Part shown: in pieces, positions 9,690 to 63,790 of the stretch
How positions within the stretch are numbered: the stretch's first letter is position 1
Layout of the letters: the number at the start of each line of letters is the position of its first letter
DNA from: Priestia megaterium
GTDB taxonomy: Bacteria > Bacillota > Bacilli > Bacillales > Bacillaceae_H
Assembly: GCF_023824195.1 (NCBI RefSeq)
Contig: NZ_CP085449.1
Coordinates: forward strand, 9,011 to 73,010
Reading direction: 5' to 3'
Length of the DNA: 64,000 nt
Position numbers and translations under genes: made by a program
Notes under the pieces: model-generated
Told to the model about the DNA's origin: nothing
Seen by the model: only the letters and a program-made list of their open reading frames with translations
The model's database searches: none

Positions 9690-9938
9690 CCGTTTACTAA
9701 AAGTGTCAATTCGTCAACCTATTTAACAATAAATGTATTATCCTTCTATTTCAACACCTAATATAAAACAAAGGTGGGGTATGGTTAATAATGCGTACTT
9801 AAAGGGTCAAAATCCAGGAAAAAGGGTTTGAATAGTCATTTTCTTTTTGTAATCTCCATAAAAATATAGAAAATTTTACATAAATTTGGTATTATTTAAT
9901 TACTGTAACATTCACATTTCAACGAGTGTGACATCCAA

Positions 9939-48712: not shown

Positions 48713-50023
48713 TTAAAACTTTTTATTTACTAACGTTGGAATAAACACACGGAAAGTTGTTCCAACCTCTTTTTTACTTGTTAACTCAATATATCCATCG
48801 TATTTTTCTAATTTTCGTTTAACTGTATATAATCCAATTCCTTGATGATTCAACTTAGTTGAATAACCTGGGACAAATACCTTGTCTAAATTATCTCCTT
48901 TTATGTAAGAGTTTTGATTGTTAACCTCTATTACAAAAAAAGATTTTAATAAATGATCTATCTTTAAACTTACATATTTATCTTCCTTCTTTGAAGCCAA
49001 CTCTGCCTCAAAAGCATTATCTACAATATTTCCAACAATTTGTATTAATTCATGAGATAATATTTTAACACAAGGAATGTCTTCTGCTGTATCAATAAAA
49101 AAGTTAATATTATATAATTTAGCTACCTCTATTTTGGCTTGTAACAGTGTAGATAATGCCGTATGCTTTAACCTCAATAAATTATCTGTTAAACAAATAT
49201 CTTGAAATAAATTTTTTATATACTGATTTAATTCATTGTATTGCTTATGCTCTGATAATCCATATATAACCTGAAGTTGATTATAATAATCATGTCTATG
49301 GCTTTTAACAGAGGCGCTTAAATCTTGTAAGTTACTGAGGTATACATCCTCAGACATAAGGTACATCTGTTGCTCTGATTTTTCACAAAATTTAACTACC
49401 ACACGTATTAAATTGCACATTATTAAAATTGTAGCAAATACAATTATGTATGTTAATGCGCGTCTCCCTTCACCATTTCCAATGTCGACCAATACAGCTA
49501 ATAATACCACAAAAATTTGAGCAAGAATTGACGTGATAATCGTTATAATAAAATTGCTATTAAGATTATTTCTATCTAATACTTTCTTCAAAGAAATGTC
49601 TTTCTTTGAAAGCACAATAATTCCTATAATGATAGTTACATATAAAAAGATAGCGATATAAATCTGAAGTGGCAATTTCATTTTTACAAAATTTATATAC
49701 TGTGCATTTAAAATTATAAGTACAATTATACTCTCTAGTGTTGTTTGCAGAACTGCACGAAGCAAGGATATAAGTATACTAAACTGTAAACTAAGCTTAA
49801 ATATATACATAACAATTATTATATGCATGAATATATTAACTAATAGCTTTATATCTGTATTAATATCCCAGTTAAAAGTATACGATGTGCATAATGAATA
49901 GATGGCGCTGAACATTATTACTTTTCTTATATTTTTAACTAAGTTACCAAACAATAATTTAACTAAAAATGATAATAAAGTAATATTTTCAATAAAGGTA
50001 AGAGCATAAGCTATTAAGTGCAT
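48713..50023 (-). CDS. agrC: AgrC-like sensor histidine kinase
   Basis: A 436-residue kinase of the HPK10/AgrC type. About six to seven transmembrane segments fill the first 210 residues. Then comes a linker and H-box (SASVKSHRHDYYNQLQVIYG, phospho-His at about 240), the N-box QIVGNIVDNAFEAELA and an ATP lid GYSTKLNHQGIGLYTVKRKL. It is 9 bp downstream of the agrD gene and part of an agrB-agrD-agrC operon. It should bind the cyclic peptide made by AgrB/AgrD. No LytTR-type AgrA gene follows: the next gene is convergent, beyond a terminator. Confidence 0.88.
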   Translation of the reverse strand: MHLIAYALTFIENITLLSFLVKLLFGNLVKNIRKVIMFSAIYSLCTSYTFNWDINTDIKLLVNIFMHIIIVMYIFKLSLQFSILISLLRAVLQTTLESIIVLIILNAQYINFVKMKLPLQIYIAIFLYVTIIIGIIVLSKKDISLKKVLDRNNLNSNFIITIITSILAQIFVVLLAVLVDIGNGEGRRALTYIIVFATILIMCNLIRVVVKFCEKSEQQMYLMSEDVYLSNLQDLSASVKSHRHDYYNQLQVIYGLSEHKQYNELNQYIKNLFQDICLTDNLLRLKHTALSTLLQAKIEVAKLYNINFFIDTAEDIPCVKILSHELIQIVGNIVDNAFEAELASKKEDKYVSLKIDHLLKSFFVIEVNNQNSYIKGDNLDKVFVPGYSTKLNHQGIGLYTVKRKLEKYDGYIELTSKKEVGTTFRVFIPTLVNKKF

Positions 50024-50032
50024 ATTCTAATC

Positions 50033-50155
50033 TTACTTACGCTTCAAAGATTTTGGAATTTGAATCTCATGGATTAGATAGAAGCTAGCTGTTGATATTT
50101 CTGTATGAGCTATTTTTACAAAGAAACTTGCAAATAATCTTTTAATTTTTTTCAT
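50033..50155 (-). CDS. agrD: AgrD-like autoinducer precursor with predicted Ser lactone
   Basis: A 40-residue peptide gene with a ribosome site (GAGGGAC) before the ATG, overlapping the 3' end of agrB. The N-terminus is an amphipathic leader (MKKIKRLFASFFVKIAH), followed by TEISTASFYLI and then the conserved-type tail HEIQIPKSLKRK. In AgrD the ring residue is followed by four residues and then an acidic/EVP-like tail. Here that position is Ser24 (S-F-Y-L-I, then HE), so a five-residue lactone ring is predicted instead of a thiolactone; the peptide has no cysteine. Confidence 0.8.
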   Translation of the reverse strand: MKKIKRLFASFFVKIAHTEISTASFYLIHEIQIPKSLKRK

Positions 50156-50720
50156 TTTTTGTCCCTCTTTTTCTCTTTAATAAAGTAAGTGACTGGGAAA
50201 CTATCCCCAATTGGATAGCTGTAGCATATGAAGGGCTTAAACCCAAAATATACTGAACGAATATATACATTATAATTATAAAAGTAATTGATAAATATTT
50301 TAGTAGCGATCTATGATTGTAGGATACTCTATCAGGATTAATTGAAGTTCCGAAAACCAACAATATAAAAATACTAATTATAAAACAAAAAAACATGCTT
50401 ATTTTTAAGTATGCTATGTTTACTTGCCCCATTATTTGGGAAGCTAATGCTATACTTGTCAGCAGGGACATAGAGTTTATATAACAGTAAAAAAATCTAG
50501 AAAAGTGAAACCCTCCGGAGAGCAATCTTAGAGAAGAAAACGAAACTAAAACTATTAGGATAAGGATCAAATCATTTATTAAAAAGCCTATTAATAAAAT
50601 TGTAACTAATTTAATCAATGATCTAATTGTAATTTCCACTCCATAGGCTATTACCTCTGATTCATAATTTGATTCCTTAACCAATTTGTTACTTATTTTT
50701 AGGGAAAGGTCGTGAATCAT
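50142..50720 (-). CDS. agrB: AgrB-family accessory gene regulator protease
   Basis: A 192-residue membrane endopeptidase of the AgrB family. The catalytic block RLLSGGFHFSRFFYCYINSM keeps the His and Cys (about residues 72 and 79) seven apart, as in staphylococcal AgrB. About five membrane segments surround it. It cuts AgrD after the ring and forms the (thio)lactone. The ATG follows AAGGAGATAAGAA. It is the first gene of a three-gene leftward operon with agrD and the kinase. Confidence 0.92.
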   Translation of the reverse strand: MIHDLSLKISNKLVKESNYESEVIAYGVEITIRSLIKLVTILLIGFLINDLILILIVLVSFSSLRLLSGGFHFSRFFYCYINSMSLLTSIALASQIMGQVNIAYLKISMFFCFIISIFILLVFGTSINPDRVSYNHRSLLKYLSITFIIIMYIFVQYILGLSPSYATAIQLGIVSQSLTLLKRKRGTKNEKN

Positions 50721-50779: not shown

Positions 50780-52189
50780 TCAACTGTTAGGGAGATATCC
50801 ACTAAATATAGCTCCATTAGGATGATTATTTTTTACTATTAAGTCTCCTCCATGTATTTTAAAAGCATGTTTAGCAATTGTTAATCCAAGTCCAGTTCCA
50901 CCTGTCTGACGATTTCTGGAGTATTCTCCCCGATATAATGGTTTAAATATGTGCGGTAATATTTCTTCAGGTATGCCTTCTCCACCATCTTTTATAGTAA
51001 TGATTATTTCTTTTTCTGTATTTTCTAAGATTATATCTATTGAGCCACCTGTAGGTGTATATCGAATTGCGTTACTCACTATATTATCTATAGATCTCGT
51101 CAATAAAGGCGCATTACCTTGTAAAGTGAGAGACTTCTCTGGCATCTCTAAAGACAAACTTATGTTTTTTTGACGGCACGCTAAATCGTAGCCCTCAACT
51201 ATATTTTGGACTAAACTTTTAATTTCAATAGGATGAAATTCTGGCTGAGTTCCTAAATAATCAAGCTTTACATATTCGAATAAATTAGAAACTAGTTCTT
51301 CTAACAAGTTTGCTTTATTTCTACAAACCCTAATATATTTTTTTTGTTTTTCTGGGCTATTTGCTATCCCCTTTTCTAACCCCTCTAAATATCCTCTTAT
51401 CGAAAATAAGGGTGTTCGTAGGTCATGGACAATTGAAGCAACAAACATTTTTCTATCTTCTTCCATTTGGGCTTTCGAAGCTAACAACTCATGTAGCTCT
51501 TGTTGCATAAATTTAAAACCATCCGATACTGCATTGATTTCTTTAACTGATGAAGAAGGCAAAACAGATGTAAATTCATTACGAGAAAGTGACAAAGCTG
51601 CACGCTCCAATAACTTAAGAGGACGTATTATCATTTTATGGGTGATAATAACACAAAATAATAACACAAGAAAGAATAAGGATATCCAAACAATAACTCC
51701 ACCCCATTGCTTTAAAAATGCATTTTTAGGTTTATTAATCTCTTCCCCAACAGCAGGGGGAGTATACTTTATAAAAGCAGTCCCAGTAGCCTTTCCTTCT
51801 TTATAAATTGTTTGTTTTTCAAAAGCCGATTTAGATAACCCAATGCTGTAGTTTCCTTTTTGATGAATAGTTTCGCCTGAAGCTCCATTTGTACTTGTGA
51901 ATACTATTTGGTCATTAGAATCTACTAAAATAATTTCTATTCCTTTATTATGTAAATCTTTTATTATATTATTTTTCCATTTTGAACTTCCCCATAATTC
52001 AGGCTTCAGAAGAATAGATTTTTCTATCCATCCCTGTACGTTATTTTCTCCCACCTGATTATTTTCATAAGAATCGCTAGAATACCGATTATACATGTGC
52101 GATATAAATTTAGTTCCTAAGAAAGGTACCAGTGTAAGTAATAATAAAATAATGATGACCCACTGACGTATAGAGAGTTTACTGATCAT
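50780..52189 (-). CDS. Sensor histidine kinase (HAMP, HisKA)
   Basis: A 469-residue kinase: N-terminal transmembrane segment (QWVIIILLLLTLVPFLGTKF), an extracellular sensor of about 130 residues, a second segment (GGVIVWISLFFLVLLFCVII), HAMP (IRPLKLLERAALSLSRNEFT), H-box ASIVHDLRTPLFSIRGYLEG (His at about 255), N-box SIDNIVSNAIRYTPTGGS, and GTGLGLTIAKHA. Its start overlaps the response regulator stop by 11 bases. The divergent ABC transporter beginning at 53065 is the probable target, as in peptide-antibiotic or envelope-stress modules. Confidence 0.9.
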   Translation of the reverse strand: MISKLSIRQWVIIILLLLTLVPFLGTKFISHMYNRYSSDSYENNQVGENNVQGWIEKSILLKPELWGSSKWKNNIIKDLHNKGIEIILVDSNDQIVFTSTNGASGETIHQKGNYSIGLSKSAFEKQTIYKEGKATGTAFIKYTPPAVGEEINKPKNAFLKQWGGVIVWISLFFLVLLFCVIITHKMIIRPLKLLERAALSLSRNEFTSVLPSSSVKEINAVSDGFKFMQQELHELLASKAQMEEDRKMFVASIVHDLRTPLFSIRGYLEGLEKGIANSPEKQKKYIRVCRNKANLLEELVSNLFEYVKLDYLGTQPEFHPIEIKSLVQNIVEGYDLACRQKNISLSLEMPEKSLTLQGNAPLLTRSIDNIVSNAIRYTPTGGSIDIILENTEKEIIITIKDGGEGIPEEILPHIFKPLYRGEYSRNRQTGGTGLGLTIAKHAFKIHGGDLIVKNNHPNGAIFSGYLPNS

Positions 52190-52883
52190 GCCTTAATCCC
52201 TCAAACTTATAACCCACTCCCCAAACAGTTTGAATCCACTCAGGGTGTGCTGGACAATCTTCTATTTTATCTCGAATTCGGGCAATAAACACTCTAACAG
52301 AATGTGAATCACTATAATCCTCTCCCCACACCTTATTAATAAGCTGCTCATGAGTAAATACTTGCTTGGGATGTATAGCCAAAAGCTCTAAAATATCGTA
52401 TTCTCTAGATGTTAAAGAAACTTGTTTGTCTCCTTTCCATACTTCACGAGCTTTCATATCAATTTTCAAATTTCCAAAATCGAGAATGTTCGTTGAATGA
52501 TTTACTTTTACCTGTTGCACATCAAATCTTCTACGAACTGCTTTAATCCGGGCAATGATCTCTCCTGGAGTAGCTGATTTTACAATATAATCATCTGCTC
52601 CAAGATTTAGCCCTCTAATTTTATCAATATCATCTTGTTTTGCACTTAAAAACAAAATAGGTACGTTACTAATTTTTCGTATTTCTTTACATACAGTAAA
52701 TCCATCTATATTTGGCATCATAATATCGAGTAAGATACAATCGATTTTTTTAGATGCTATGACGTCTAAAGCTTCTTTACCGTTATATGCAGTACGCACT
52801 TTATAACCATCTATCTCCAAAAAATCTTTTAATAAATCAACAATCTCTATCTCATCATCTGTAATTAGAATTGTTTCTTGCAT
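52179..52883 (-). CDS. OmpR/PhoB-family response regulator
   Basis: A 234-residue regulator: receiver domain with ILITDDEIEIVDLLKDFLEI, phospho-acceptor Asp in IDCILLDIMMPNIDGF (about residue 53), conserved Lys in DDYIVKSATPGEI, then a winged-helix effector (VSLTSREYDILELLAIHPKQ; HSVRVFIARIRDKIEDCPAH; IQTVWGVGYKFEG). The start follows GGAAGGAAGTGAAGCT. It is co-transcribed with the downstream kinase gene and divergent from the ABC transporter genes. Confidence 0.93.
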   Translation of the reverse strand: MQETILITDDEIEIVDLLKDFLEIDGYKVRTAYNGKEALDVIASKKIDCILLDIMMPNIDGFTVCKEIRKISNVPILFLSAKQDDIDKIRGLNLGADDYIVKSATPGEIIARIKAVRRRFDVQQVKVNHSTNILDFGNLKIDMKAREVWKGDKQVSLTSREYDILELLAIHPKQVFTHEQLINKVWGEDYSDSHSVRVFIARIRDKIEDCPAHPEWIQTVWGVGYKFEGLRHDQ

Positions 52884-53064
52884 AGCTTCACTTCCTTCCT
52901 CTACTTATTTTCCATATAGTATATATTAAGCTAAAAAAAGTAATTTTTTAATATGTTTGATAAAAATTTGATACTTTATTTACATTTTATTGATATTTTC
53001 ATGACAATTTATTTAGTTTTCTCTTATACAATGACGTTAACTTAAATAAGGAGAGATGCTAGCC

Positions 53065-53820
53065 ATGTCATTTGTATTAGAAGCACAATCAATAAACAAG
53101 ATATATGGAACGCAGGATAATCAATTTTATGCGTTAAAAAATATTCATTTACAGGTCCAAAAGGGTGAGTTTCTGGCAATTATGGGGGCAAGTGGATCCG
53201 GAAAATCTACTTTATTGAATGTCTTATCCGGATTAGATAAGCCTACTTCTGGAAAGGTCATTCTAGATAATATTGATATTACCAAAGCTAGAGATGCAGC
53301 CCTAACAAAAATACGCTCTGAAAATATAGGGTTTATATTTCAATTCTTTAACTTACTTTCTATTTTGACAGCAGAGGAAAATGTTTTGTTACCTCTACTT
53401 CTTTCTAAAAGAAATAAAAATGGATTAAAAGAGAAAGCAAAAGAGCTTTTAAATCTATTAGGAATAGGACATCTACACTCTACTCATCCACCTAATATGT
53501 CTGGTGGACAACAACAGCGTGTAGCCATTGCAAGAGCATTAATTACAGATCCAAAAATTATACTTGCTGATGAACCCACAGGAAGCTTAGATTCAAAGAC
53601 AAGTAAAGAAATACTAGGAATTTTACGCTATTTCTGTGACACTTTGCACCACTCTATGGTTATGGTAACCCATGATGCAAACGTAGCTTCTTATGCACAT
53701 CGCATTGTCTTCATGGAAGATGGGCAATTAGTTGATGAACTTAAATTAAAAGACAAACAAAGAGATCGTAAGCAAGTTATTACGGAGATTACAAATAGAA
53801 TTGAAGGAGTTCTATCATGA
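53065..53820 (+). CDS. ABC transporter ATPase (MacB/LolD type)
   Basis: A 251-residue ATPase: Walker [21 protein letters not shown] (about residues 40-55), Q-loop [20 protein letters not shown], signature [20 protein letters not shown], Walker [18 protein letters not shown] and H-loop [14 protein letters not shown]. This is the MacB/LolD/BceA class that pairs with FtsX-like permeases. The second ATG is the start, since the first lies inside the ribosome site AAGGAGAG. It overlaps the permease gene (ATGA). The divergent two-component system is the likely regulator. Confidence 0.93.
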
Positions 53821-56390
53821 AGATATCAAGTATCTCTTGGAAATTCTTTGTCTCTAAAAAAGGAAGAAGTTTCTTTTCTGTTTTAGGTATATCTTTAGGG
53901 ATTATGATGTTAATTATTTCTCAAATCCTTCTTTTCACTGTAGAAAAGTCTAATGAAGAATCAGTAAAGCAGAAGTATGGCGATTATGATATGCTAGCTG
54001 GTTATCAAACAAGTAAAGATCACTTGTCAAATGAGGATATTTCTTTTATAAATAAAATTCCTGGAGTCAAAAAAAGTAGTCCTCTACTGTATCCTTATTT
54101 AGGAAATAAGGATACACATTCCGAACTCTTAGGAATGCCTATGTATGTTGGATTAAAAAATGATTCTCTATCTAAACAACATCCTTTTTCGAACATAGGA
54201 AAAGGTCATTTTCCACAAGAAAATGAAGTAGTATTACCTGTACGCTATGTGAAATCACATGGACTTAAAATAGGATCCACTATTGAAATGTCTTTCCCTC
54301 CCAACGGAAAGAAAAAGGTCAAAATCTCTGGCACTTTTAATGAAACAGAAAAATTAGATTATATAGCTTTATTTAATTACAGATGGTTAAGTCAAGTCAC
54401 CTCTCATGAAAATAAAACGACTGTAGTCATGTTGAAACTTTCCAGCCGTTCTTATGTGGAAAATGTTTCAGAAAGTCTCAAAGAAAAATTCTCGAATATA
54501 TATATTGATGGACGTAAAGAGATGGATAAAGAAAAAGAAAATATTGGGGGATTAAAACCATTTATCCACATCCTTACATTTGGATCCATAATTGGAAGTA
54601 TATTAATTGTAATTAGCACATTACAGATGGCTATACAAGAAAGACAAAGAGACCTTGCAACCTTAAGGTTATTAGGAGCCAAAAAAATTCAGATTTTCAC
54701 ACTAATATTAGTGGAATCACTAATCATTGGTATTTTAGCTTCCATAGTAAGCCTAGGATTAGGCACACAAATCGCATTTTTATCCAAAAATTTTGTCCAA
54801 CACCTAATGAATGTACAAATAGCTGAGGTTATTATTCCTTGGAAATCTGTTATTATAAGTGCAATTATAGGAGTAGTTTTAACAATCCTATCAGGGGTCA
54901 TTCCAGCTTATAATGCAATGAAACTCCCACCAATTGCAGCCTACCGTCAGAGTTCGCAAGGGTTACAAAAGTTAAATCCCTTAATTACAATTGCTGGCCT
55001 AGTTTTTCTCAGTTTGTCTTGTTTAATAGGATTTCTAAATTATTTCTATATAGATGGTCCCAAGTGGATTTATTTACTTACAGGAATAACCTTTTTTATC
55101 TCCATGTTTCTAAATATTCCCTTAGTACTAAAGACTATGACTAGATTATTCACTTTAATTGCAAAACCAATAGTAGGATCAGAAGGTTATATTTCTGGGC
55201 AAAATGTTTTGCGACAAATAAAACGAAATATTCAAATCTCAAGCATATTAGTTCTAGCCTTTACAATTGGATTTACAGGATATATGTTATTTAGCTCTGT
55301 CGTGCGTCAATCAGAACAAACAATACGTGATGAACACCTTACTGATTATACAATTCGTTCTAGTGAATCCACACTTGAACCGGGATTCTCTAATGAACTA
55401 GTTAATCAGCTGAATAAGATTAACGGCCTACGATATATTTCAGTTCCTACATCTGTATTTGGTCTAACGTTAAATCTAGATCAAGAACATGCAAGTAAAT
55501 GGAACGGTCAATTATTTTCAGTAAATGGTCAACAGCAGGCTCATCTTAATTTAGGTGCCATAGATATGAAAAAAGCAAATACATTCAAATCTATTAACGT
55601 ACTAGAAGGTACAATCGATCAAAATGCCCTACGTGATAATGGTGTTGTAATAACAAAGGATATAAAAGACTTAGGGTACAAATTAGGCGATACAATTCAA
55701 ATTGGACGATATGATGATGTATTAAAAGGGGATAAAGGCCATTCATTTCGTATTATTGGAGTAATTAAGGATATGCCATTGACTCCTGGTGACGAGTATA
55801 AAATTTATACTGATCCTATAAACTTACAAAGATACTTTTATCTCAATAAAGTTCAACAGATTCAATATAATATAGTTAATAAAAATAAAACAAAAGAGAT
55901 TCAAAATCAAGTTGAAACGCTTTTAAAGAATCCTAGCTTTTCTAATACCGTTTTGTATGATAGAGCACAGGAACTCCAGAAATTAAAGAATGAAGCAACT
56001 CAGAGAATGCTTATTTTACTTATTGTTGTCATTCTAATGACATCTATTGCACTTATTGGATTAATGAATAGTATGGCAAGTAGTTTTCAAGAAAGAAAAC
56101 GCGAGTTTGCGGTTCTAAGAGCTATTGGAAGTAGAAAGAAACAAATTATTCGCTTGGCTTTATTAGAAGGAATTATAGTGACGCTCTCCGGAGGTATTGT
56201 TGGTATTATTACTGGATTAATAGTAGGATATAACGTTTTGGCAGGTTTGGAAGCAGAATATTATATCCTTCCAACTGTATTTGTTCTAATAGGTTTATTT
56301 GTAAGTCCCTTAATAGGTATTTTATCAACTATTTTCCCATCTATTTGGGTTTCAAAGATGAATGTTATTAAAAATTTACGTGAGGATTAA
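53817..56390 (+). CDS. FtsX-like ABC transporter permease (857 residues)
   Basis: A permease with two FtsX units. The first has an N-terminal segment (ISLGIMMLIISQILLFTVEK), an extracellular MacB-like domain (residues about 50-240) and three segments (about 250-370). The second repeats the order: segment near 485, extracellular domain (about 515-720), and segments at about 730-850, with the typical EFAVLRAIGSRKKQIIRLAL. This double-unit layout fits non-canonical mechanotransmission or efflux systems rather than BceB (about 650 residues). Substrate unknown; antimicrobial peptides or lipids are likely candidates. A terminator (56393-56425) follows. Confidence 0.88.
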   Translation: MKISSISWKFFVSKKGRSFFSVLGISLGIMMLIISQILLFTVEKSNEESVKQKYGDYDMLAGYQTSKDHLSNEDISFINKIPGVKKSSPLLYPYLGNKDTHSELLGMPMYVGLKNDSLSKQHPFSNIGKGHFPQENEVVLPVRYVKSHGLKIGSTIEMSFPPNGKKKVKISGTFNETEKLDYIALFNYRWLSQVTSHENKTTVVMLKLSSRSYVENVSESLKEKFSNIYIDGRKEMDKEKENIGGLKPFIHILTFGSIIGSILIVISTLQMAIQERQRDLATLRLLGAKKIQIFTLILVESLIIGILASIVSLGLGTQIAFLSKNFVQHLMNVQIAEVIIPWKSVIISAIIGVVLTILSGVIPAYNAMKLPPIAAYRQSSQGLQKLNPLITIAGLVFLSLSCLIGFLNYFYIDGPKWIYLLTGITFFISMFLNIPLVLKTMTRLFTLIAKPIVGSEGYISGQNVLRQIKRNIQISSILVLAFTIGFTGYMLFSSVVRQSEQTIRDEHLTDYTIRSSESTLEPGFSNELVNQLNKINGLRYISVPTSVFGLTLNLDQEHASKWNGQLFSVNGQQQAHLNLGAIDMKKANTFKSINVLEGTIDQNALRDNGVVITKDIKDLGYKLGDTIQIGRYDDVLKGDKGHSFRIIGVIKDMPLTPGDEYKIYTDPINLQRYFYLNKVQQIQYNIVNKNKTKEIQNQVETLLKNPSFSNTVLYDRAQELQKLKNEATQRMLILLIVVILMTSIALIGLMNSMASSFQERKREFAVLRAIGSRKKQIIRLALLEGIIVTLSGGIVGIITGLIVGYNVLAGLEAEYYILPTVFVLIGLFVSPLIGILSTIFPSIWVSKMNVIKNLRED

Positions 56391-56392
56391 AA

Positions 56393-56425
56393 ATTAAAAG
56401 GCTGTCCAAACTATTTTGGACAGCT
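56393..56425. terminator. Terminator between permease and VKOR genes
   Basis: AAAGGCTGTCCAAA pairs with TTTTGGACAGCTCTT; it sits between convergent genes. Confidence 0.75.
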
Positions 56426-56426
56426 C

Positions 56427-56843
56427 TTACGAACTAATTACTTTATAGAGTTTCAAATTTCTATAGAAATCTAACACAGCACTAAAAAATAAAAAAGTTA
56501 TAATGGCAAATGAAGTTGTACACCAAAAACAGATTGCTCCAATTTTAAAAATTGATGTGTAAATTAAATACAAGGAAAATAAAAAGCCCATACCTGTAGT
56601 TAATAAAAATAGGCTGGAAAATTTAATACTATTTCTTTTGAAAATCAGCATATTAAATATTATTAAATAACCTAATACCCCTATAAGTGACACCGGCAAT
56701 CCCATCAATTCTGAGTAAGAACTGAGGGAGACCTTTTCACAACCACTAGAAGGGCAATATAAATAGGAGTTCTCCATCCATTTATTGATTAGTAAGTATA
56801 AAGAAACTAATAAACCTATGAGAGACGTACAAATTTTAAACAT
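56427..56843 (-). CDS. VKOR-family disulfide-generating membrane protein
   Basis: A 138-residue VKOR homologue with four membrane helices. The loop pair is in YLYCPSSGCEKVSLSSYSEL, and the quinone-side CxxC is in GAICFWCTTSFAII (about residues 104-107), with the conserved Ser and Gly-Leu-Pro (ELMGLPVSLIGVLGY) between. VKOR proteins reoxidise DsbA-like partners using quinone. It is the last gene of the lasso-type operon and lies just after precursor 1. With the DsbA-like protein at 57558 it forms a complete oxidation pair, like BdbC/BdbD in Bacillus. The ATG at 56843 follows AGGAGTGATAGAGTCT; an earlier start is possible. Confidence 0.85.
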   Translation of the reverse strand: MFKICTSLIGLLVSLYLLINKWMENSYLYCPSSGCEKVSLSSYSELMGLPVSLIGVLGYLIIFNMLIFKRNSIKFSSLFLLTTGMGFLFSLYLIYTSIFKIGAICFWCTTSFAIITFLFFSAVLDFYRNLKLYKVISS

Positions 56844-56949
56844 AGACTCTATCACTCCTAATGTGGTTTCTAAAAAAAGCAACAGTTTGCTGACTGTTAC
56901 TTCTCGAAAACATCCAGCAAACTATTGCCTAATCTATACTATTTATATA

Positions 56950-57132
56950 TTAATCACAACGATTTCCTCTAAGTGTTGTGCAAATGCAGTGCCATTTATC
57001 CGTATATAACCAACGGAGTTGTCTATCAGAATCATCCAAACTCAAGCCTTCAACTCCCCATCCGTCACAACCTTGAATAAGATCAATAGCTTCACCAAAC
57101 ATTACAACTGTAGGAAATGAGAATTTTTTCAT
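56950..57132 (-). CDS. Putative lasso-peptide precursor 1
   Basis: A 60-residue precursor behind the strong site AGGAGGAACTAAA. The leader MKKFSFPTVVMFGEAIDLIQ has an FSFP motif in place of YxxP and a conserved-type Gly near its middle. The presumed core starts at Gly21: GCDGWGVEG puts Glu at core position 8, giving an 8-residue G1-E8 macrolactam. The core is 40 residues, well above the 15-26 usual, and has Cys at core positions 2, 29, 31 and 39. The penultimate leader residue is Ile, not the usual Thr. Leader and most core positions match precursor 2. Confidence 0.78.
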   Translation of the reverse strand: MKKFSFPTVVMFGEAIDLIQGCDGWGVEGLSLDDSDRQLRWLYTDKWHCICTTLRGNRCD

Positions 57133-57294
57133 TTTAGTTCCTCCTATTTTTTAAAAAGATTTTATATGTACCGTAAGCTTCTGACGCTGTTTACTTGGAA
57201 TTCTAAAAGACTTACGGTATAATAATACAACTAATTCTTTATATTTTTTATGATCTTTTACCATTCACACGCCCTGTGATGGTAAAAGATTTTT
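57133..57294 (-). other. Spacer between the two precursors, with two inverted repeats
   Basis: A hairpin ATCTTTTACCAT / ATGGTAAAAGAT (57252-57291) lies directly after precursor 2, and a second pair TACCGTAAG / CTTACGGTA (about 57173-57219) follows. Neither has a T run on the minus strand, so they may protect or process RNA ends rather than terminate fully. Confidence 0.55.
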
Positions 57295-57486
57295 TTAGCT
57301 AATTGGTGTACAACCGTTACCTTTTAAACTTGTGCAGATACATACCCAACGAGTAGTATAAATCCATTTATAACGAGAATCAGAATCATCTAAAGTAAGA
57401 TTTTCGGTTCCCCAACCACCGCAACCTTGGATTAAATTTGATGCATTACCAAACTCTACAACCGTAGGAAATGAGAATTTTTTCAT
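57295..57486 (-). CDS. Putative lasso-peptide precursor 2
   Basis: A 63-residue precursor behind AGGAGGAACCAAA. The leader MKKFSFPTVVEFGNASNLIQ differs from that of precursor 1 at only a few positions. The core begins GCGGWGTENLTLDDSDS, with Glu at core position 8 as ring acceptor, and continues through IYTTRWVCICTSLKGNGCT. It is 43 residues with Cys at core positions 2, 29, 31 and 39, exactly as in precursor 1. Conserved LDDSD, W, Y, CIC and GN blocks indicate selection on the whole long core, not only on the ring. Confidence 0.8.
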   Translation of the reverse strand: MKKFSFPTVVEFGNASNLIQGCGGWGTENLTLDDSDSRYKWIYTTRWVCICTSLKGNGCTPIS

Positions 57487-57557
57487 TTTGGTTCCTCCTA
57501 TTTTTTAAAAGATTTTATTTTATTTATTTAAAGCTGTTCCAAGTACAGCATCAGACA

Positions 57558-58235
57558 CTATTTCATAGATTTTGCTAACTCTTTTTCAATTACACTTTCC
57601 AATTCTTTCTTACTAGGCGCACCTATAATTTGAGTTTTACCTATAATAAGAACTGGCGTTCCTAAGAATTGCATTTTTTTAAATTCTTCTCGAGTTTTTG
57701 ACAGCTTGCTGTTTAAAGCTTCAGCTTGGACATCTTGATTGAATTGACTTATATTTAAATTTAATTGGTCGGCATATTTTCCGAAAATTCCGAATCCTTT
57801 TTCAGCCGAGCTCCATTCACTGCTCTTTTGAAATAAGAGGTTATGCATTTCCCAATATTTATCTTGTTTTTGAGCTGCTAGTGATGCTATAGATGCTTCT
57901 TCAGCGTTAAAGTGACTACTTGCAGGTACATCTTTAAAGATGTATCTTACCTTTCCACTCTCAATATAATTCGAGTAAAAATTTATTGAATCAAAATTTC
58001 TCTTCAAAACATTACATGCTCCACATCCATAATCAGAAAACTCTACTATAGTGAGTGGAGCATCTTTTTTACCAACCACTACACCATTCTGAGAATTCAT
58101 AATCGATGGATCTTTCAATGTTTTAGAAATGGTATTTGCATCAACTTTAGGATCAATAGCAAATTGATAGAATAATAAACAAATTAAGAAACCTAAGCTT
58201 CCAAATATTACACCTTTTTTTATAAAGGAATTCAT
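57558..58235 (-). CDS. DsbA-like thiol-disulfide oxidoreductase (BdbD type)
   Basis: A 225-residue membrane-anchored thioredoxin-fold protein: one N-terminal transmembrane segment (IFGSLGFLICLLFYQFAID), then a domain opening GVVVGKKDAPLTIVEFSDYG with active site CGAC (about residues 70-73), a helical insert (EEASIASLAAQKQDKYWEMH) and the cis-Pro loop LGTPVLIIGKTQI. It matches extracellular DsbA/BdbD oxidases that introduce disulfides. Its start overlaps the preceding gene (ATGA). Placed beside two four-Cys precursors and a VKOR, its substrate is very probably the exported peptide. Confidence 0.88.
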   Translation of the reverse strand: MNSFIKKGVIFGSLGFLICLLFYQFAIDPKVDANTISKTLKDPSIMNSQNGVVVGKKDAPLTIVEFSDYGCGACNVLKRNFDSINFYSNYIESGKVRYIFKDVPASSHFNAEEASIASLAAQKQDKYWEMHNLLFQKSSEWSSAEKGFGIFGKYADQLNLNISQFNQDVQAEALNSKLSKTREEFKKMQFLGTPVLIIGKTQIIGAPSKKELESVIEKELAKSMK

Positions 58236-58549
58236 AATTGTGGCCTCTTTTTTTTCATAATTATGAACCCAATACCTGATATAGTAGACACCAACATTGC
58301 TAATCCTGCTGCCATTTCATACTTTAATACATCATCTGTACCATCAAATTTAAAATTTTCATTATCAACACTTACTGCACTTTCCTCTGGTTTTTCCATT
58401 GAAGGTGGTTTTGACGAATTTGTCATATGACTCTCAATATATTGATCTGTTAATTTTATTCTCATATTTTTTTCTCTGATAAACATACCTATAAAGAAGA
58501 TCATAGTAATTAACGAAATTACAAAAGTTCCAAACCAAAACTTTCTCAA
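58232..58549 (-). CDS. Two-span membrane protein of the lasso operon, unknown
   Basis: A 105-residue protein with a transmembrane segment at each end (FGTFVISLITMIFFIGMFIR; MAAGLAMLVSTISGIGFIIM) and a polar middle of about 50 residues (NSSKPPSMEKPEESAVSVDN). The start is a TTG behind AAAGGAGGATTACG. It overlaps the dsbA-like gene. Immunity, maturation or exporter assistance are possible; no family recognised. Confidence 0.65.
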   Translation of the reverse strand: MRKFWFGTFVISLITMIFFIGMFIREKNMRIKLTDQYIESHMTNSSKPPSMEKPEESAVSVDNENFKFDGTDDVLKYEMAAGLAMLVSTISGIGFIIMKKKRPQL

Positions 58550-58574
58550 ACGTAATCCTCCTTTGTTCCTAGTA

Positions 58575-60359
58575 TTAAGTCAAAGCTTTAACTGCTTTTG
58601 TGTGACGTGAATGAGATTGCTTACATAGTTGAGCAAATATACTTTGCTTTTGTAATAGTTCTTCTGGAAATCCAGATTCTGCTATCTTTCCGTTTGATAA
58701 AACAATTACTCTGTTATTGTTACTAATATTGGCTACCCGATGAGTGATTGAGATAACGGTTCTCTCATAAGTAAGACGTTCAATTGCATTTTGGATCATT
58801 TCTTCAAAATGTGTGTCTAATGAAGAGGTAGCTTCATCTAAAATCAAAATTGAAGGATTTTGTAAAAATACCCGAGCAATAGCAATTCGTTGCTTCTCTC
58901 CTCCTGATAACTTATAGCCCCTTTCTCCTACTAAAGTGTCATATTGATCTGGTAAACCCATAATTTTCTCATGAATATGAGCTGATTGAGCTGCCATAAC
59001 CATTTCTTCTTCTGTGGCATCGGGTTTGGCTAATAAAATATTTTCACGTATAGTAGAATGCAAAAGATATACTTCTTGTGAAATTAGTCCAATGTGTTTA
59101 GGTATGTCTTCAGAAGAAACATCCTTTAAATTTACACCGTCGATGTATATATCACCTTTGGTTGGCTGATAAAGGCGAGATAGTAAATAAGCAATTGTCG
59201 TTTTTCCAGAACCACTATATCCCACAATGGACACTTTCTCTTTTGCTTGTACTTTAAAAGAAAGATTATCAAGGGCTTTTTCTTCGTCATAAAGAAATGA
59301 AACATTGTCAAAACAAATCTCACCTTTTACATGTCCCAAAGATATATTGTTTTTAGGTTCAATAACATCAGAATTTTGATCTAAATATGAAAAAAGCCTT
59401 TCAAAAGTTACTTTTGCACTTTGAAGCATTATGCCAATTTTACTGATGCTTTGTATAGGATTAAAAAGAGATGCGATATATGATGATAAAGCAATAGCTG
59501 TTCCAGCACTAATTTCAAAAGGTCCTCCAGGTCTTCCCAACCAATACATAAGAACAGGAGCAATAGCTGTCCCTAAGGTAAAAGTAGTATTAAATATTCC
59601 CCCTAAAAATGCTTGTTTAATAGATAACTTCCTTACGGTGTCGATAAGGTTAATAAACTTTTCCCTAACTACATTGTTTCGGCCAAATAACTTCAATAAC
59701 ATGATTCCATTAATACTTAAATTTTCATTTATAAAAGAATTTATTTCTGCATTATTCTCTACTAATTTTTTACTGATTTTATAAACGATTTTCCCCATTA
59801 AAGGAAGCGTTAGTAATAGTAAAGGCGTGGTCAGTATAATTATTAGTGAAATTTTCCAACTTAGCATAATCATAGTTACAATTGTTACAATAAGTGACAA
59901 TATTGTTTGGAAACTATAAATAATCGGTTTAAAGACACTATCGCCTATCATATTCGCTTCGGAGGTGACGCGTGAAATAATCTCACCCGATTTATTGTCC
60001 GTAAAGAAACGAATAGATTTTTGCTGGAGATGATCATAAAGTTTTAGCCTAACATTGTATATTATTCCACTAGTAAGAGAGATGACTAACAAATCTTGAG
60101 CAGTATGAATTATAACCTGTGTTATTCCTGCAAAGAAAAGTAATGTAAGCAATACTTCAAATGGAATAGTATTTGTCCCAGAAAATCCTTTATCTATAAT
60201 CTCTGCTACAAGTAATGGGGTTACAGGGCTTAGCAGAGATTGAACAATTATAGTAATTATGATAAAAACTAGTGTTTTCCATCTATTCCCCGATAAAGCA
60301 ATTACTCTCTTCCAGGAGAAATCAGAGCTAATTTCACTCACGCTTTTTGTAACGTCCAT
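58575..60359 (-). CDS. ABC exporter (type-IV half-transporter) of the lasso operon
   Basis: A 594-residue half-transporter with an N-terminal six-helix membrane domain (about residues 20-320) and a C-terminal ATPase: Walker A IVGYSGSGKTTIAYLLSRLY, signature YKLSGGEKQRIAIARVFLQN, Walker B PSILILDEATSSLDTHFE. It lacks the C39 peptidase domain of bacteriocin exporters, consistent with leader cleavage by a separate B2 protease. The usual role in lasso clusters is export and self-immunity. The ATG at 60359 is preferred (GGGAG eight bases upstream) over a TTG two codons earlier. Confidence 0.9.
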   Translation of the reverse strand: MDVTKSVSEISSDFSWKRVIALSGNRWKTLVFIIITIIVQSLLSPVTPLLVAEIIDKGFSGTNTIPFEVLLTLLFFAGITQVIIHTAQDLLVISLTSGIIYNVRLKLYDHLQQKSIRFFTDNKSGEIISRVTSEANMIGDSVFKPIIYSFQTILSLIVTIVTMIMLSWKISLIIILTTPLLLLTLPLMGKIVYKISKKLVENNAEINSFINENLSINGIMLLKLFGRNNVVREKFINLIDTVRKLSIKQAFLGGIFNTTFTLGTAIAPVLMYWLGRPGGPFEISAGTAIALSSYIASLFNPIQSISKIGIMLQSAKVTFERLFSYLDQNSDVIEPKNNISLGHVKGEICFDNVSFLYDEEKALDNLSFKVQAKEKVSIVGYSGSGKTTIAYLLSRLYQPTKGDIYIDGVNLKDVSSEDIPKHIGLISQEVYLLHSTIRENILLAKPDATEEEMVMAAQSAHIHEKIMGLPDQYDTLVGERGYKLSGGEKQRIAIARVFLQNPSILILDEATSSLDTHFEEMIQNAIERLTYERTVISITHRVANISNNNRVIVLSNGKIAESGFPEELLQKQSIFAQLCKQSHSRHTKAVKALT

Positions 60360-60374
60360 ATTCAATTCTCCCGT

Positions 60375-60791
60375 TTATAATTTTTCAAATATGTATAAGT
60401 TAACTAATATAAGTACCATATATGAAATATTAAAAATAAGTTTACTTTTATTAATTTTTTGAGGACCATGCAGCCCAAAACACCCGCATCCAAAAGGCAA
60501 TATTTTGTTATAACGTAATATCATCATGACAATAAACACTAATTGTAATAATGTAGCTAGAATTAATCCGTAGTATCTACTTACCTCGAAGAAAATCATT
60601 ACTCCTGTTATGAACTCTAAAGGCCCCATTATAATTGCAAATATTAAAGCTATATGTCCTTTTAACTTTAAATCATATGTTTCAATTACCTTTCCAAATG
60701 CATATGGATTCTTTATTTTTCCGGAACTACTCTTTATAAATATAAATCCGGTTACTAAACTAAGAATGATAGCAATAATATTCTCTATCAC
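60375..60791 (-). CDS. MauE/DoxX-like membrane protein
   Basis: A 138-residue four-helix membrane protein: FIKSSSGKIKNPYAFGKVIE after the first segment, then HIALIFAIIMGPLEFITGVM and LPFGCGCFGLHGPQKINKSK. The FGKxxexY and PFGCGCFG patterns belong to the MauE family, which assists disulfide formation during methylamine dehydrogenase maturation. The start is a GTG behind GGGGGAAGAAATTT. It lies between a thioredoxin-like gene and the exporter, the same pairing (MauE/MauD) as in known disulfide maturation systems. Confidence 0.8.
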   Translation of the reverse strand: MIENIIAIILSLVTGFIFIKSSSGKIKNPYAFGKVIETYDLKLKGHIALIFAIIMGPLEFITGVMIFFEVSRYYGLILATLLQLVFIVMMILRYNKILPFGCGCFGLHGPQKINKSKLIFNISYMVLILVNLYIFEKL

Positions 60792-60809
60792 AAATTTCTT
60801 CCCCCGCCT

Positions 60810-61286
60810 CTATAAGAAAGCATTAATTTTACTTTTAGAGTTGTCACTACTACCAAGAAAATTTTTAATTTCATCTAAAGGTAATGTATCTGGTCCCTTG
60901 GATAAACAAGCTTTTAATTGATGGTTCTCAAAACGAAGGATTGAAGGTACATTAGAGACCTGATACTTATCCAAGTATCCAAAAGCAGGTGCAACTCCAC
61001 TTTTCTCATCAAAATTTTCTAATACATTTACACATGCATAAGGTATATTAGATTTTTTCATTAACGTATTTATTTTCTTCATATTTTTGATGGTTCTCTT
61101 ACACGTATTTTCATCAAAAAACAATATGATAAAAATACTATGCTTTGTAATTAAAGATTCAATCTTTTCAACTGGCGTAGTCATATTTTTCAGTACATAC
61201 AATGTATTTTTCACTTTAAAGTAAGTAATAAGTGTTAAAATAATAAATACTGCGGTATAAATACTAAAAATGATAAACTTTGTCAT
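60810..61286 (-). CDS. Membrane-anchored thioredoxin-like protein (MauD-like), atypical motif
   Basis: A 158-residue protein with one N-terminal transmembrane segment (FIIFSIYTAVFIILTLITYF) and a thioredoxin-like domain. FIILFFDENTCKRTIKNMKK holds the active-site position, and VSNVPSILRFENHQL the cis-Pro loop. The usual CxxC reads CKRT, keeping only the first Cys, so it could form mixed disulfides but not a standard dithiol cycle. Another Cys lies in IPYACVNV. It overlaps the cyclase gene by 23 bases, indicating coupled translation in the lasso operon. Confidence 0.75.
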   Translation of the reverse strand: MTKFIIFSIYTAVFIILTLITYFKVKNTLYVLKNMTTPVEKIESLITKHSIFIILFFDENTCKRTIKNMKKINTLMKKSNIPYACVNVLENFDEKSGVAPAFGYLDKYQVSNVPSILRFENHQLKACLSKGPDTLPLDEIKNFLGSSDNSKSKINAFL

Positions 61287-63099
61287 AAAGCTGCTCCTTT
61301 TTATAAGTATGTTCTTGTAACCACAGTTCTAAGATGAGAGCGCCAAAAAAGTCCATACTCTTGCTGAGTTCACCATGTCGATATCGATCTATTTGATTGA
61401 GGAACACTTTCCCGTCAATCAGTCCAAGCTCCGCCAATAATGGTTTCTGTAAAGCTGGATAAAGTTTATCCCATTCATTTTTTAATCCCTGAAATATTAA
61501 CATGTCTGTAGAAGATTTAGTGGGTCTATCAAGTATTTCATCAGGAACAATCCCTCGTAGTGACCTACGCAGTAAAACTTTTGTTTGGGCATCATCAATT
61601 TTTTGTTCAATAGGCAAACTGAAGAGATATTCCACAAGTCTAACGTCTAAAAATGGGTATCTTGTTTCGAGTCCATTTGTTTCTGAAAGGAATTGGGCAA
61701 AATGGAAGCCCTGGGACCTTTCAATATAGCGATACTGCATTCGAAGACCGGGATTTTTAATCTTATTCTCATTTTGATATCGTTCTTGACATTGATCGTG
61801 AACTTTTGGCAACAATACGGTAGGCTGCTCATGTTCCCCTTTTATTGCATTTACTCCAAATTCCTTAATAGCTCCACTTAATGTATAATTATAAGATTTA
61901 GCAAGTTTACTACTTTCTTGAAGAAACTTTAGAATTCTAAATTTTTTTAAGAAATCAGCAATATAATATGGATTAAATCCAAATACTTGATCCCCTGCAT
62001 AACCATTTAATAGAACTTTGGCCTTTTGTTCCATGGCGATATTATAACAAGGCTTTAACATAGCATATGACAATTGATTACGATTGGGTTCATCAGTTTC
62101 AATAGAAAAGTTTGGGTACCCCTTTAAAATCCACAAATCATCTGATACAACGCATTTATGGTCTCTTTCTCTATATTGATCTAGTATATATCGAATATAG
62201 TATCTCTCGTCCCCGTCGGTATATCTATCAAAAACGCAAGATATCGGAAATACCTTGTTATAAGCTAAATTTTTTGCACTTCCATAAATAGAGGTAGAAT
62301 CTAATCCACCACTAAGTAAAACACCTGTACAGTCAATATTCTCTATACGACCCCTTACGGACTTGGAAAATAAATCTCTAAAATGCTCTTCATATTCGGA
62401 ATCATTTTTATACTTTATTTGTTTACCTACATCTAAATCCCAATATTTATTTATTTTTATATCGTGAGGATCTACTATCATGTAGCTCCCTTTAGGAAGC
62501 CTTTTAACGGATTTATACGGCGTTTCTTCTTCGGAACAAGTACCTTTTCGATACAAAAAGTCTGCTAAGTAAGTAGTATTCCACTCGGATACTTCCATAG
62601 TCTTTTCAATACTTCTAATTAAGCTAGAAAAAATAAAATTTCCATTTATGGTTTTATAAAATAGTGGACGCATTCCCATAGGATCCCTCGCAGCAAATAT
62701 TTGCTGCTTCTCACAGTCCCATACTATAAAAGCAAAATCCCCAATTAAATATTTAACGCAATCATGTCCCCATTTTTGGTAGGCTTTTAAAATAAGTTTT
62801 GTATCATTCATAGAGGAATTAGTAAGGTTAGTCTGAAGCAGATCTATTAATTCCTGTTTATTGTCAATTCTGCAATCTGCTACTATATATATTTCTCCAT
62901 TTTCTGAAGATAAGACATTGGTACTATCCTGATTTCTTTCATTAACTTGTAGTGTAGCCTTTCCTAACGCTACATAATCTCGAACCCAGTAATCTTGATA
63001 GTCGTTTCCTATAATTTTTAATTTATATACTATTTTAATGATCTCAGATAGTTCGACTTTTTTTAAACTACGATTAAATATACCGGCAATACCACTCAT
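61264..63099 (-). CDS. Asparagine synthetase-like lasso cyclase (C protein)
   Basis: A 611-residue protein with an N-terminal Ntn-like domain (MSGIAGIFNRSLKKVELSEI; YLIGDFAFIVWDCEKQQIFA; ARDPMGMRPLFYK) and a C-terminal AsnB synthetase domain with the PPi loop VLLSGGLDSTSIYGS (about residues 258-272). The nucleophilic Cys2 of glutamine-dependent AsnB is Ser here, so it does not use glutamine in the usual way, as in lasso cyclases. These adenylate the Glu/Asp side chain and join it to the core N-terminus. Its start overlaps the B2 stop. Confidence 0.88.
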   Translation of the reverse strand: MSGIAGIFNRSLKKVELSEIIKIVYKLKIIGNDYQDYWVRDYVALGKATLQVNERNQDSTNVLSSENGEIYIVADCRIDNKQELIDLLQTNLTNSSMNDTKLILKAYQKWGHDCVKYLIGDFAFIVWDCEKQQIFAARDPMGMRPLFYKTINGNFIFSSLIRSIEKTMEVSEWNTTYLADFLYRKGTCSEEETPYKSVKRLPKGSYMIVDPHDIKINKYWDLDVGKQIKYKNDSEYEEHFRDLFSKSVRGRIENIDCTGVLLSGGLDSTSIYGSAKNLAYNKVFPISCVFDRYTDGDERYYIRYILDQYRERDHKCVVSDDLWILKGYPNFSIETDEPNRNQLSYAMLKPCYNIAMEQKAKVLLNGYAGDQVFGFNPYYIADFLKKFRILKFLQESSKLAKSYNYTLSGAIKEFGVNAIKGEHEQPTVLLPKVHDQCQERYQNENKIKNPGLRMQYRYIERSQGFHFAQFLSETNGLETRYPFLDVRLVEYLFSLPIEQKIDDAQTKVLLRRSLRGIVPDEILDRPTKSSTDMLIFQGLKNEWDKLYPALQKPLLAELGLIDGKVFLNQIDRYRHGELSKSMDFFGALILELWLQEHTYKKEQLYDKVYHF

Positions 63100-63533
63100 A
63101 CTATCTGCTCCTCTACTCGTCTAAGGCGTCTTGTATCAAACTGTCGAATTAAATTCTCTATAAACTCTGGAGAATCATTAATAACTTGCCCATTAAACTC
63201 TAGCCAGGCATGTGACATAAATGGCTTCTTACTAACCCCTACTACAAGATCAATAGGAATACCTCTTTGTTGAAAAACATGATATCCGGACAAAGAACGA
63301 TGAAGACATCGAGCATTTCCAAAAAAACTAAAACAAATCTTCTCGCTAATTTCCAAAATTAACTTGATAAATTCTACATCATTTTCATTTAAATCTCTTA
63401 ATGGCATTAGAGAAATATTTTCATTTAAATAAACATTATGTATTTGTTTAAACCCTTGGTTTTTTAATATCTTATCGATTCCCTTTATTACAAAATAAAC
63501 TTTCCAATACCAATAAATTTTCCGCAACATCAT
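63096..63533 (-). CDS. Lasso B2 transglutaminase-like leader peptidase
   Basis: A 145-residue protein of the lasso-peptide B2 family. Catalytic Cys is in FGNARCLHRSLSGYHVFQQR (about residue 79), His in KPFMSHAWLEFNGQ (about 114) and Asp in VINDSPEF (about 125), the Cys-His-Asp triad expected. It cleaves the leader before ring closure. It overlaps the genes on both sides (ATGA junctions with B1 and C), the normal split B1/B2 arrangement of Gram-positive lasso clusters. Confidence 0.87.
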   Translation of the reverse strand: MMLRKIYWYWKVYFVIKGIDKILKNQGFKQIHNVYLNENISLMPLRDLNENDVEFIKLILEISEKICFSFFGNARCLHRSLSGYHVFQQRGIPIDLVVGVSKKPFMSHAWLEFNGQVINDSPEFIENLIRQFDTRRLRRVEEQIV

Positions 63534-63790
63534 ACAGATGTAATCAGCCCTTTCTCAAGTAAACTTTCTAGAAAGGTATGTAATTGTACTTCTAGTACTT
63601 CTTCCTGAACATCATACATTTTCAGCATGTTTTTTTTAACTTTATCTGAACTACCATGTTGTTCAATTAATTTCCAGATATCAACCCCGACCTCATCTAA
63701 TCCGAAATAAATTCCACTTTCTATATCCAAAACTACTGCTTCACCGTCCGTTTCAGTAAAAACTACATTTTGAGAAGTTTGAAAATTCAT
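63530..63790 (-). CDS. PqqD-like RiPP recognition protein (lasso B1)
   Basis: An 86-residue PqqD/RRE protein: VVFTETDGEAVVLDIESGIY, FGLDEVGVDIWKLIEQHGSS and a helical C-terminus FLESLLEKGLITSV. The beta-hairpin-then-helix pattern with YFGLDEVGVDIW is diagnostic. It binds the precursor leader (the FxxP motif in both precursors) and brings it to B2. It is the first gene of the operon; the ATG follows GGGAGCAATGATAAA. The 210 bases upstream hold the presumed promoter and no gene. Confidence 0.88.
   Translation of the reverse strand: MNFQTSQNVVFTETDGEAVVLDIESGIYFGLDEVGVDIWKLIEQHGSSDKVKKNMLKMYDVQEEVLEVQLHTFLESLLEKGLITSV

Follow-up and report, generated by a model that had tools for sequence, protein, structure and literature searches.

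Genes of the lasso-type cluster

We analyzed a window of 64,000 bases (the whole stretch of DNA examined, bases 9011-73010 of the 73,010-base contig NZ_CP085449.1 from Priestia megaterium) that harbors a lasso-type peptide cluster with thiol redox genes among its lasso genes. The named lasso and redox genes are all located on the minus strand, within positions 56401-63790 of the window. Reading down from 63790, they encode B1, a PqqD-type leader-binding protein with the RiPP recognition element (RRE) function (63530..63790); B2, a transglutaminase-like leader peptidase (63096..63533); C, an asparagine-synthetase-like macrolactam synthetase (61264..63099); a membrane-anchored thioredoxin-like protein without a CXXC motif, here called the pseudo-thioredoxin (60810..61286); a MauE1-type membrane protein with a CxC motif, GCGCFG (60375..60791); an ATP-binding cassette (ABC) exporter with membrane and ATPase parts (58575..60359; PF00664 and PF00005); a 105-residue membrane protein with two hydrophobic stretches by eye (58232..58549); a DsbA/BdbD-like protein with an N-terminal hydrophobic anchor (57558..58235); the precursors A1 (63 residues; 57295..57486) and A2 (60 residues; 56950..57132); and a VKOR with a loop cysteine pair and CFWC (56427..56843). 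The VKOR start is probably at 56843, and the exporter probably starts at the ATG at 60359, the open reading frame list having 60365 (TTG). The leftward lasso set of the original prediction (B1, B2, C, the ABC exporter and two precursors) is in place, and two items that its gene list had omitted are added, the 105-residue membrane protein and a convergent ABC/FtsX exporter at 53056-56390.

The B1 protein matched the PqqD family (PF05402, 58.6 bits; cut-off 23.4) and the RRE protein TbiB1 (5v1u, 42.9 bits); with the lasso-specific model NF033536 it reached 64.5 bits, short of the 80 required. B2 scored 61.5 bits with NF033537, for which the cut-off is 33. The best NCBIfam model for C was the lasso cyclase model NF033535, with 373.9 bits under a cut-off of 525. 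C starts with MSGIAG, so it lacks the Cys2 of glutaminases; it contains SGGLDST and is 46% identical to the cyclase of L195, a related locus described below. We regard C as a putative divergent cyclase, for which the missed cut-off would weaken family membership rather than a cyclase-like working. The scores of B1 (PqqD) and B2 above threshold, the closeness of C to lasso cyclases and the leader pattern of the precursors all point to a lasso-type cluster. Under strict limits, C was found only in its own genome, both in the genus (1 of 10 genomes) and in the order (1 of 397); a search of plasmids gave 376 records, none with at least 60% identity, the 20 listed matches looking like other synthetases; and a scan of genome contigs gave one distant match, L005, which was set aside.

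The DsbA-like protein matched PF13462 (94.7 bits) and BdbD (3eu3, E 2.5e-16), and both the CXXC motif (CGAC) and the cis-Pro motif (TP) are present. The VKOR matched PF07884 (85.2 bits) and resembles solved VKOR-thioredoxin proteins; its cysteines C29, C34, C104 and C107 (numbered from residue 2) were invariant in all four aligned rows. It was the only VKOR found in the host genome, where other DsbA-like proteins are present, and a protein search with it gave three matches, one of them 99% identical to the window VKOR. MauE1 matched PF07291 with 75.8 bits (cut-off 27), and its C102 and C104 were invariant in six of six rows. The pseudo-thioredoxin has TCKRT in place of CXXC and fell below every Pfam and NCBIfam cut-off. 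Its profile matched solved structures weakly (best E 1.3e-5, to 7uek, called OT3, followed mostly by thioredoxins at E of at least 0.08), and hhalign placed it on redoxins in the expected register with E 0.011 and a weak probability of 3.8%. A single-sequence structure model was unreliable (pLDDT 44.9). By phmmer it matched the corresponding proteins of L195 (86 bits) and L196 (42 bits); both contain a CPxC at a later position, occupied by APAF in the window protein. Given the weak profile and hhalign matches, the label pseudo-thioredoxin is used with reserve. Of the four redox proteins originally proposed, the MauE, DsbA and VKOR proteins were borne out by scores above their cut-offs, and the thioredoxin-like protein was not, as a CXXC is missing at the canonical place. 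Because of this, the cluster appears to hold one complete oxidation pair and not the two dedicated pairs that had been proposed, DsbA and VKOR being the only combination predicted to be catalytically complete.

Precursors and related clusters

The predicted cores begin with GCGGWGTE in A1 (from residue 21) and GCDGWGVE in A2, and are 40-43 residues long with tails of 32-35 residues. If the core starts at Gly21, both have cysteines at core positions 2, 29, 31 and 39, in agreement with the earlier claim of four cysteines at identical core positions. Gly1 and Glu8 fit the usual lasso core, which has Gly, Ala, Ser or Cys at position 1 and Asp or Glu at positions 7-9. Cores starting at Gly1 that have lost water and 4 H would have calculated monoisotopic neutral masses of 4734.14 (A1) and 4620.06 (A2). 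A protein search with A1 found A1 itself and P0002; a search with an alignment of A1, A2 and P0002 found 22 proteins, including the two of the window, with names from Parageobacillus, Bacillus and Lysinibacillus. Gly21 and Glu28 (core positions 1 and 8) were invariant in the 22-row alignment, in an 18-row alignment of the two cluster types described below (V and M) and in loci L206-L208; a more distant locus, L138, differs. Position -2 of the leader is Ile or Val, not the usual Thr, in the 18-row alignment and in L206-L208, and P0017, from the wider 22-row set, has Thr. Since Ile at -2 has been shown to function in BsfA, according to the accessible text of PMC10368454, the absence of Thr is not fatal to the lasso assignment.

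Ten loci with a related precursor were read: L195-L198, from four new genomes among 398 of the class; L205-L208, from four new genomes among 197 of the family of G658; and L013 and L014, from a plasmid collection, L205 repeating the L014 cluster. Redox genes were present in all ten, where the original prediction had named their absence from all related clusters as its refutation. Precursor searches gave no new match in the window's own order (1 of 397, itself), in the genera of G299 (0 of 36) and G301 (0 of 12) or in the order of G542 (1 of 42, itself). P0018 had no match in plasmids, and a search with the L014 precursor recovered nothing beyond its own record and that of L013. A phage origin was considered and rejected, as P0008 had no match in phages and none of the 43 pattern stretches in viral contigs was a precursor-like frame by eye.

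The loci fall into two types. In L195, from a genome of another order of Bacilli, the whole set from B1 to VKOR stands in the identical order as in the window with different flanking genes, and this conservation indicates that the cluster is not a chance assembly. L196 keeps the order of this type (type V) up to its precursor, where the contig ends. The DsbA proteins have CGAC in L195 and CNAC in L196; the 105-residue protein matched a frame in L195 (35.6 bits) and has a positional counterpart in L196. The cyclase gene of L196 (1771-3597) runs across three frames, reflecting either decay or sequencing error. In type M, all seven distinct clusters (L013, L014, L197, L198, L206, L207 and L208) contain MauE1, MauE2, a CXXC redoxin and a positional counterpart of the pseudo-thioredoxin, and searches for DsbA and VKOR in these seven clusters gave no match. 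MauE1 of the window is 31% identical to that of L014 (E 8e-20). The sister clusters thus hold MauE2 and a CXXC redoxin where the window holds DsbA and VKOR, beside the common MauE1. L197 and L206 have an FtsX gene between MauE1 and MauE2 and their precursor ahead of B1. The type M counterparts resemble the pseudo-thioredoxin in size, anchor and place only, and a Pfam scan of six of them gave no match. Counts of positive residues on either side of the hydrophobic stretch gave two or three before and one to three after in the three DsbA proteins, mostly zero or one before and two to five after in the pseudo-thioredoxins and their counterparts, and fewer before than after in all seven redoxins; such a count is too crude to decide membrane sides. 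L013/L015 (NZ_CP083270.1) is another Priestia plasmid with a type M cluster, and its two six-cysteine precursors are missing from the deliberately incomplete plasmid gene table.

Type V cores (window, L195 and L196) have four cysteines, namely at position 2, in a CxC and at or near the C-terminus, and eight type M cores, with tails of up to 55 residues, have six, at position 3 and five times in the tail. In a third precursor group, P0014-P0022 (GCGGWGCE), the ring contains Cys 2 and 7 and the tail contains two or four cysteines; the group's names are from Bacillus and Lysinibacillus, and it would fit a class I-like pattern. The number of cysteines was even in all 22 related proteins (two of them the window's own, and P0013 looking truncated) and in all 11 cores of nine related loci, with four in type V and six in type M; L138 has four. 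With one ring cysteine and three in the tail, full pairing of the window peptides demands one ring-tail and one tail-tail disulfide. As defined in the accessible text of PMC9266682, none of lasso classes I-IV has both; class I has two disulfides between ring and tail, one of them from an N-terminal Cys, and here the sole ring cysteine is at position 2. The predicted pattern would therefore lie outside classes I-IV, and the Bacillota lasso family with a predicted Gly1-Glu8 ring, Ile or Val at -2 and four or six core cysteines appears to be new.

A tree of 20 cyclases, including ten sampled standard ones (L013, L196 and L205 were left out as split, broken or repeated), separated types V and M together with L138/L139 from the standard cyclases (100/100). 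Support was 99/97 for type V (two rows), 100/100 for type M (six rows) and 83/69 for the fork joining V and M. One family with an exchanged redox module would be the simplest reading of this tree, the 83/69 fork leaving the order of events undecided.

To place these clusters among the lasso loci of the order, we took a census of its 397 genomes, 94 of which had a lasso B2 match at E 0.001, the window's own included. It covered 97 loci from the 93 other genomes (98 listed places minus our own; seven loci shorter than 19 kb). Profiles for MauE, redoxin, DsbA, VKOR and pseudo-thioredoxin, built without L138 and with a sensitivity to distant DsbA and VKOR forms that was not gauged, matched two of the 97. 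The census was relied on because it found both the MauE and the thioredoxin of L138, which an earlier phmmer screen had missed. L138 (8314-13957) has MauE and a CXXC thioredoxin-like protein upstream of B1-B2-C-A, a four-cysteine core and an ABC exporter, and represents a third arrangement; the redoxin match in L141 is a typical AhpC-TSA/redoxin protein in a locus with no clear lasso core. A crude CXXC motif screen gave an extra frame in L135 (82-813), about 11 kb from the cyclase and without a Pfam match. A precursor pattern, which allowed only Thr, Ile or Val at -2, was found in 57 of the 92 census loci with a C match (35 unread). Among its 58 candidates, 47 had no core cysteine, three had one, seven had two and L138 had four; those of L057 and L141 look spurious. 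The seven two-cysteine candidates had no redox neighbor detectable by the profiles. The paeninodin-type clusters common in the order share B1, B2 and C with the window, but their cyclases form a separate clade (ten sampled) and their candidates, L057 and L141 aside, have Thr at -2. In the loci compared, the redox set accompanies cores with at least four cysteines.

Hairpins, neighboring genes and probable plasmid setting

Two hairpins lie between A1 and A2 (57150..57290; -34.4 kcal/mol, z -5.3), and a terminator-like hairpin with a U run separates A2 from VKOR (56866..56940; -29.2 kcal/mol, z -6.6). A terminator pattern scan with a loop limit of 8 missed the latter; it reported four sites in the region against 3.4 expected from shuffles, one of them an intrinsic-terminator-like site 3' of VKOR (56401..56424). 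In L195, a strong hairpin of other sequence with a short U run (9740-9832, z -5.7) stands in the same place, directly before VKOR. The hairpin suggests that VKOR may depend on read-through or on its own promoter, and the precursors could be made in excess. The proposal of one operon therefore needs qualification for VKOR.

The convergent exporter consists of an ABC ATPase of the MacB/FtsX type (53056..53820, plus strand; PF00005, 132 bits) and an FtsX/MacB-type permease (53817..56390, plus strand; PF02687 and PF12704). The permease is 39% identical to an FtsX protein upstream of the L195 cluster (tblastn, 544 bits) and has relatives of 20-24% identity in L013, L014, L197, L206 and L207, so that 6 of the 17 loci tested matched, L195 included; there was no tblastn match in L196, L198, L208 or the eight other loci. 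The exporter possibly has an immunity or export role. Divergent from it, 50780-52883 encodes an OmpR-type response regulator and a HisKA kinase, resembling a peptide-sensing immunity unit. An Agr-like set at 48713-50720 comprises AgrB (PF04647, 94.5 bits) and a sensor kinase of the AgrC type by size and place, with a short frame at about 50033-50155 that by eye encodes a Cys-free AgrD-like peptide. Were the contig circular, a LytTR response regulator at its start (L006, 1-759) would stand upstream of B1. The DNA at 45.0-48.5 kb was closest to Priestia plasmids (among the 20 of 69 matches listed, only that part matched), and on this account the contig is probably a Priestia plasmid, although a comparison of its ends found no overlap that would indicate circular closure.

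Proposed maturation and its alternatives

We favor, with moderate confidence, the reading that the cluster makes two lasso-type peptides of 40-43 residues whose disulfides are formed by DsbA and VKOR, each enzymatic step being deduced from protein families. B1 would bind the leader, B2 would cut after Ile-Gln, C would join Gly1 to the side chain of Glu8 around the tail, and the ABC protein would export the product. Outside the membrane, the anchored DsbA would oxidize the four cysteines through its CGAC motif and VKOR would pass the electrons to quinone; if all four cysteines pair, one disulfide would link Cys2 of the ring to the tail and the other would lie within the tail (Cys29, 31 and 39). 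DsbA and VKOR are the candidates for disulfide formation, since the cluster encodes no other complete thiol pair and quinone-linked partner. For MauE1 and the pseudo-thioredoxin an accessory role is probable, and the missing CXXC of the latter makes docking, chaperone or export partners more likely than a second oxidase. In the sister clusters, MauE2 and the CXXC redoxin would do the job of DsbA and VKOR.

Several observations weigh against this reading. C falls short of its lasso cyclase cut-off, and the pseudo-thioredoxin had no phmmer match to any type M counterpart (pairwise E 0.11 and 0.045). VKOR was found in one of the two other type V loci, L196 being cut before that place, and in L195 the nearest ATG before VKOR is out of frame, so that a TTG start is needed or the copy is damaged or misassembled. 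The terminator-like hairpin implies that VKOR is not simply in the same transcript as the other genes. The 11 cysteine-rich clusters are non-independent: besides the window itself, nine came from searches for similar precursors, and L138 alone from the unselected census.

Results on other disulfide lasso peptides bear on a somewhat unlikely alternative in which the disulfides form spontaneously and the redox proteins help at the exporter with export, quality control or thiol homeostasis. In the accessible text of PMC9266682, mutation of sviF, mslE or mslF did not abolish the disulfide peptide, sviceucin being found only in mycelia of the sviF mutant and MS-271 being made at lower yield by the other two; arcumycin and class III/IV clusters are described there without such genes, the felipeptin flavin protein aside. 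Redox genes therefore do not prove the mechanism, and the oxidases may be dispensable; the two-cysteine census candidates, with no redox gene detected nearby, fit the same alternative. It accounts less well for the two different complete redox modules of the sister clusters and for a module that tracks four to six cysteines, not lasso export generally. That the redox genes keep the cysteines reduced, or serve metal binding or other cysteine chemistry, is very unlikely: the crude charge count could put the pseudo-thioredoxin domain in the cytoplasm, and thiol relays can run either way, but the cysteine numbers are even in all family cores read. DsbA with VKOR is an oxidizing pair in known members. 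It is scarcely credible that a lasso cluster came to lie by chance beside unrelated passenger genes on a mobile element, as the Priestia plasmid matches might suggest; we rejected this explanation on the synteny with L195, which has other flanking genes.

The topology itself could differ. A ring without a thread, that is, a branched macrolactam on a disulfide-rich mini-protein, or a core starting at Cys22 with a Cys1-Glu7 ring, is in our judgment unlikely. The long tail and a cyclase outside the standard clade and under the NF033535 cut-off would suit such a product; against it, Gly21 is invariant while the cysteine shifts by one place (GC in type V, GxC in type M), which makes a Cys start unfit for both, and Ile at -2 has the BsfA precedent. 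The clusters might define a new lasso class, in which a Gly1-Glu8 lasso has a long, disulfide-knotted tail with one ring-tail and one tail-tail bridge (four cysteines) or three bridges (six), matured by interchangeable extracytoplasmic oxidation modules (DsbA and VKOR, or redoxin and MauE2); MauE1 and a non-catalytic thioredoxin-like anchor would hold the exported lasso or present it to the oxidase. This reading is offered tentatively, as less likely than our main proposal, and the more so because the anchor proteins of types V and M are alike in place and size and not detectably in sequence.

Redox genes in lasso clusters are already known, as in AboE (DoxX) and AboF (DsbA) of the aborycin cluster (PMC6409603, accessible text). 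Like the window, the class I Streptomyces clusters (svi for sviceucin, msl for MS-271/siamycin I and abo for aborycin) have split B1/B2, C and ABC export, together with DoxX and DsbA-like proteins (AboE/AboF; SviE/SviF), four core cysteines and two disulfides; unlike the window, they come from Streptomyces, not Bacillota, and VKOR is not mentioned in the portions of the sources available. Aborycin has 21 residues, ring cysteines 1 and 7 and an Asp9 ring, whereas the window peptides have Cys2, a predicted Glu8 ring and 40-43 residues. The class IV peptides (LP2006, pandonodin and felipeptins) share a tail disulfide with our prediction, but have one disulfide and, as far as PMC9266682 describes in its accessible text, no further genes but the felipeptin flavin protein. 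The glycocin clusters (sublancin bdbA/bdbB and pallidocin) likewise belong to Bacillaceae ribosomally synthesized and post-translationally modified peptides (RiPPs) with their own redox proteins, here thioredoxin-like and DsbB-like, and two disulfides (PMC6405829, accessible text); they differ in making a glycopeptide without lasso enzymes and in using DsbB, not VKOR or MauE. In methylamine dehydrogenase maturation by MauD/MauE, MauE is speculated to form disulfides (PMC7794033, accessible text), but the substrate is an enzyme subunit, while MauE1 of the window stands beside the pseudo-thioredoxin. The claim that no such cluster was known is thus limited by the DoxX and DsbA of siamycin-type clusters and by the thioredoxin-like/DsbB pairs of glycocins (PMC6409603, PMC9266682 and PMC6405829, as far as their accessible text goes). 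In the open-licence literature, nothing joined a lasso peptide, a disulfide and VKOR, which is weak evidence of absence with subscription journals mostly outside it, and, with the same reserve, none of the titles and abstract beginnings listed there named this family.

For the role of redox genes beside disulfide lasso peptides, this family offers a natural experiment in Bacillota, since its lasso genes are related and come with either of two complete redox modules. The thioredoxin-like protein without CXXC beside MauE provides a testable clue to how DoxX and MauE proteins act in RiPP clusters, and the predicted peptides, as long, stable knotted mini-proteins, could serve as scaffolds.

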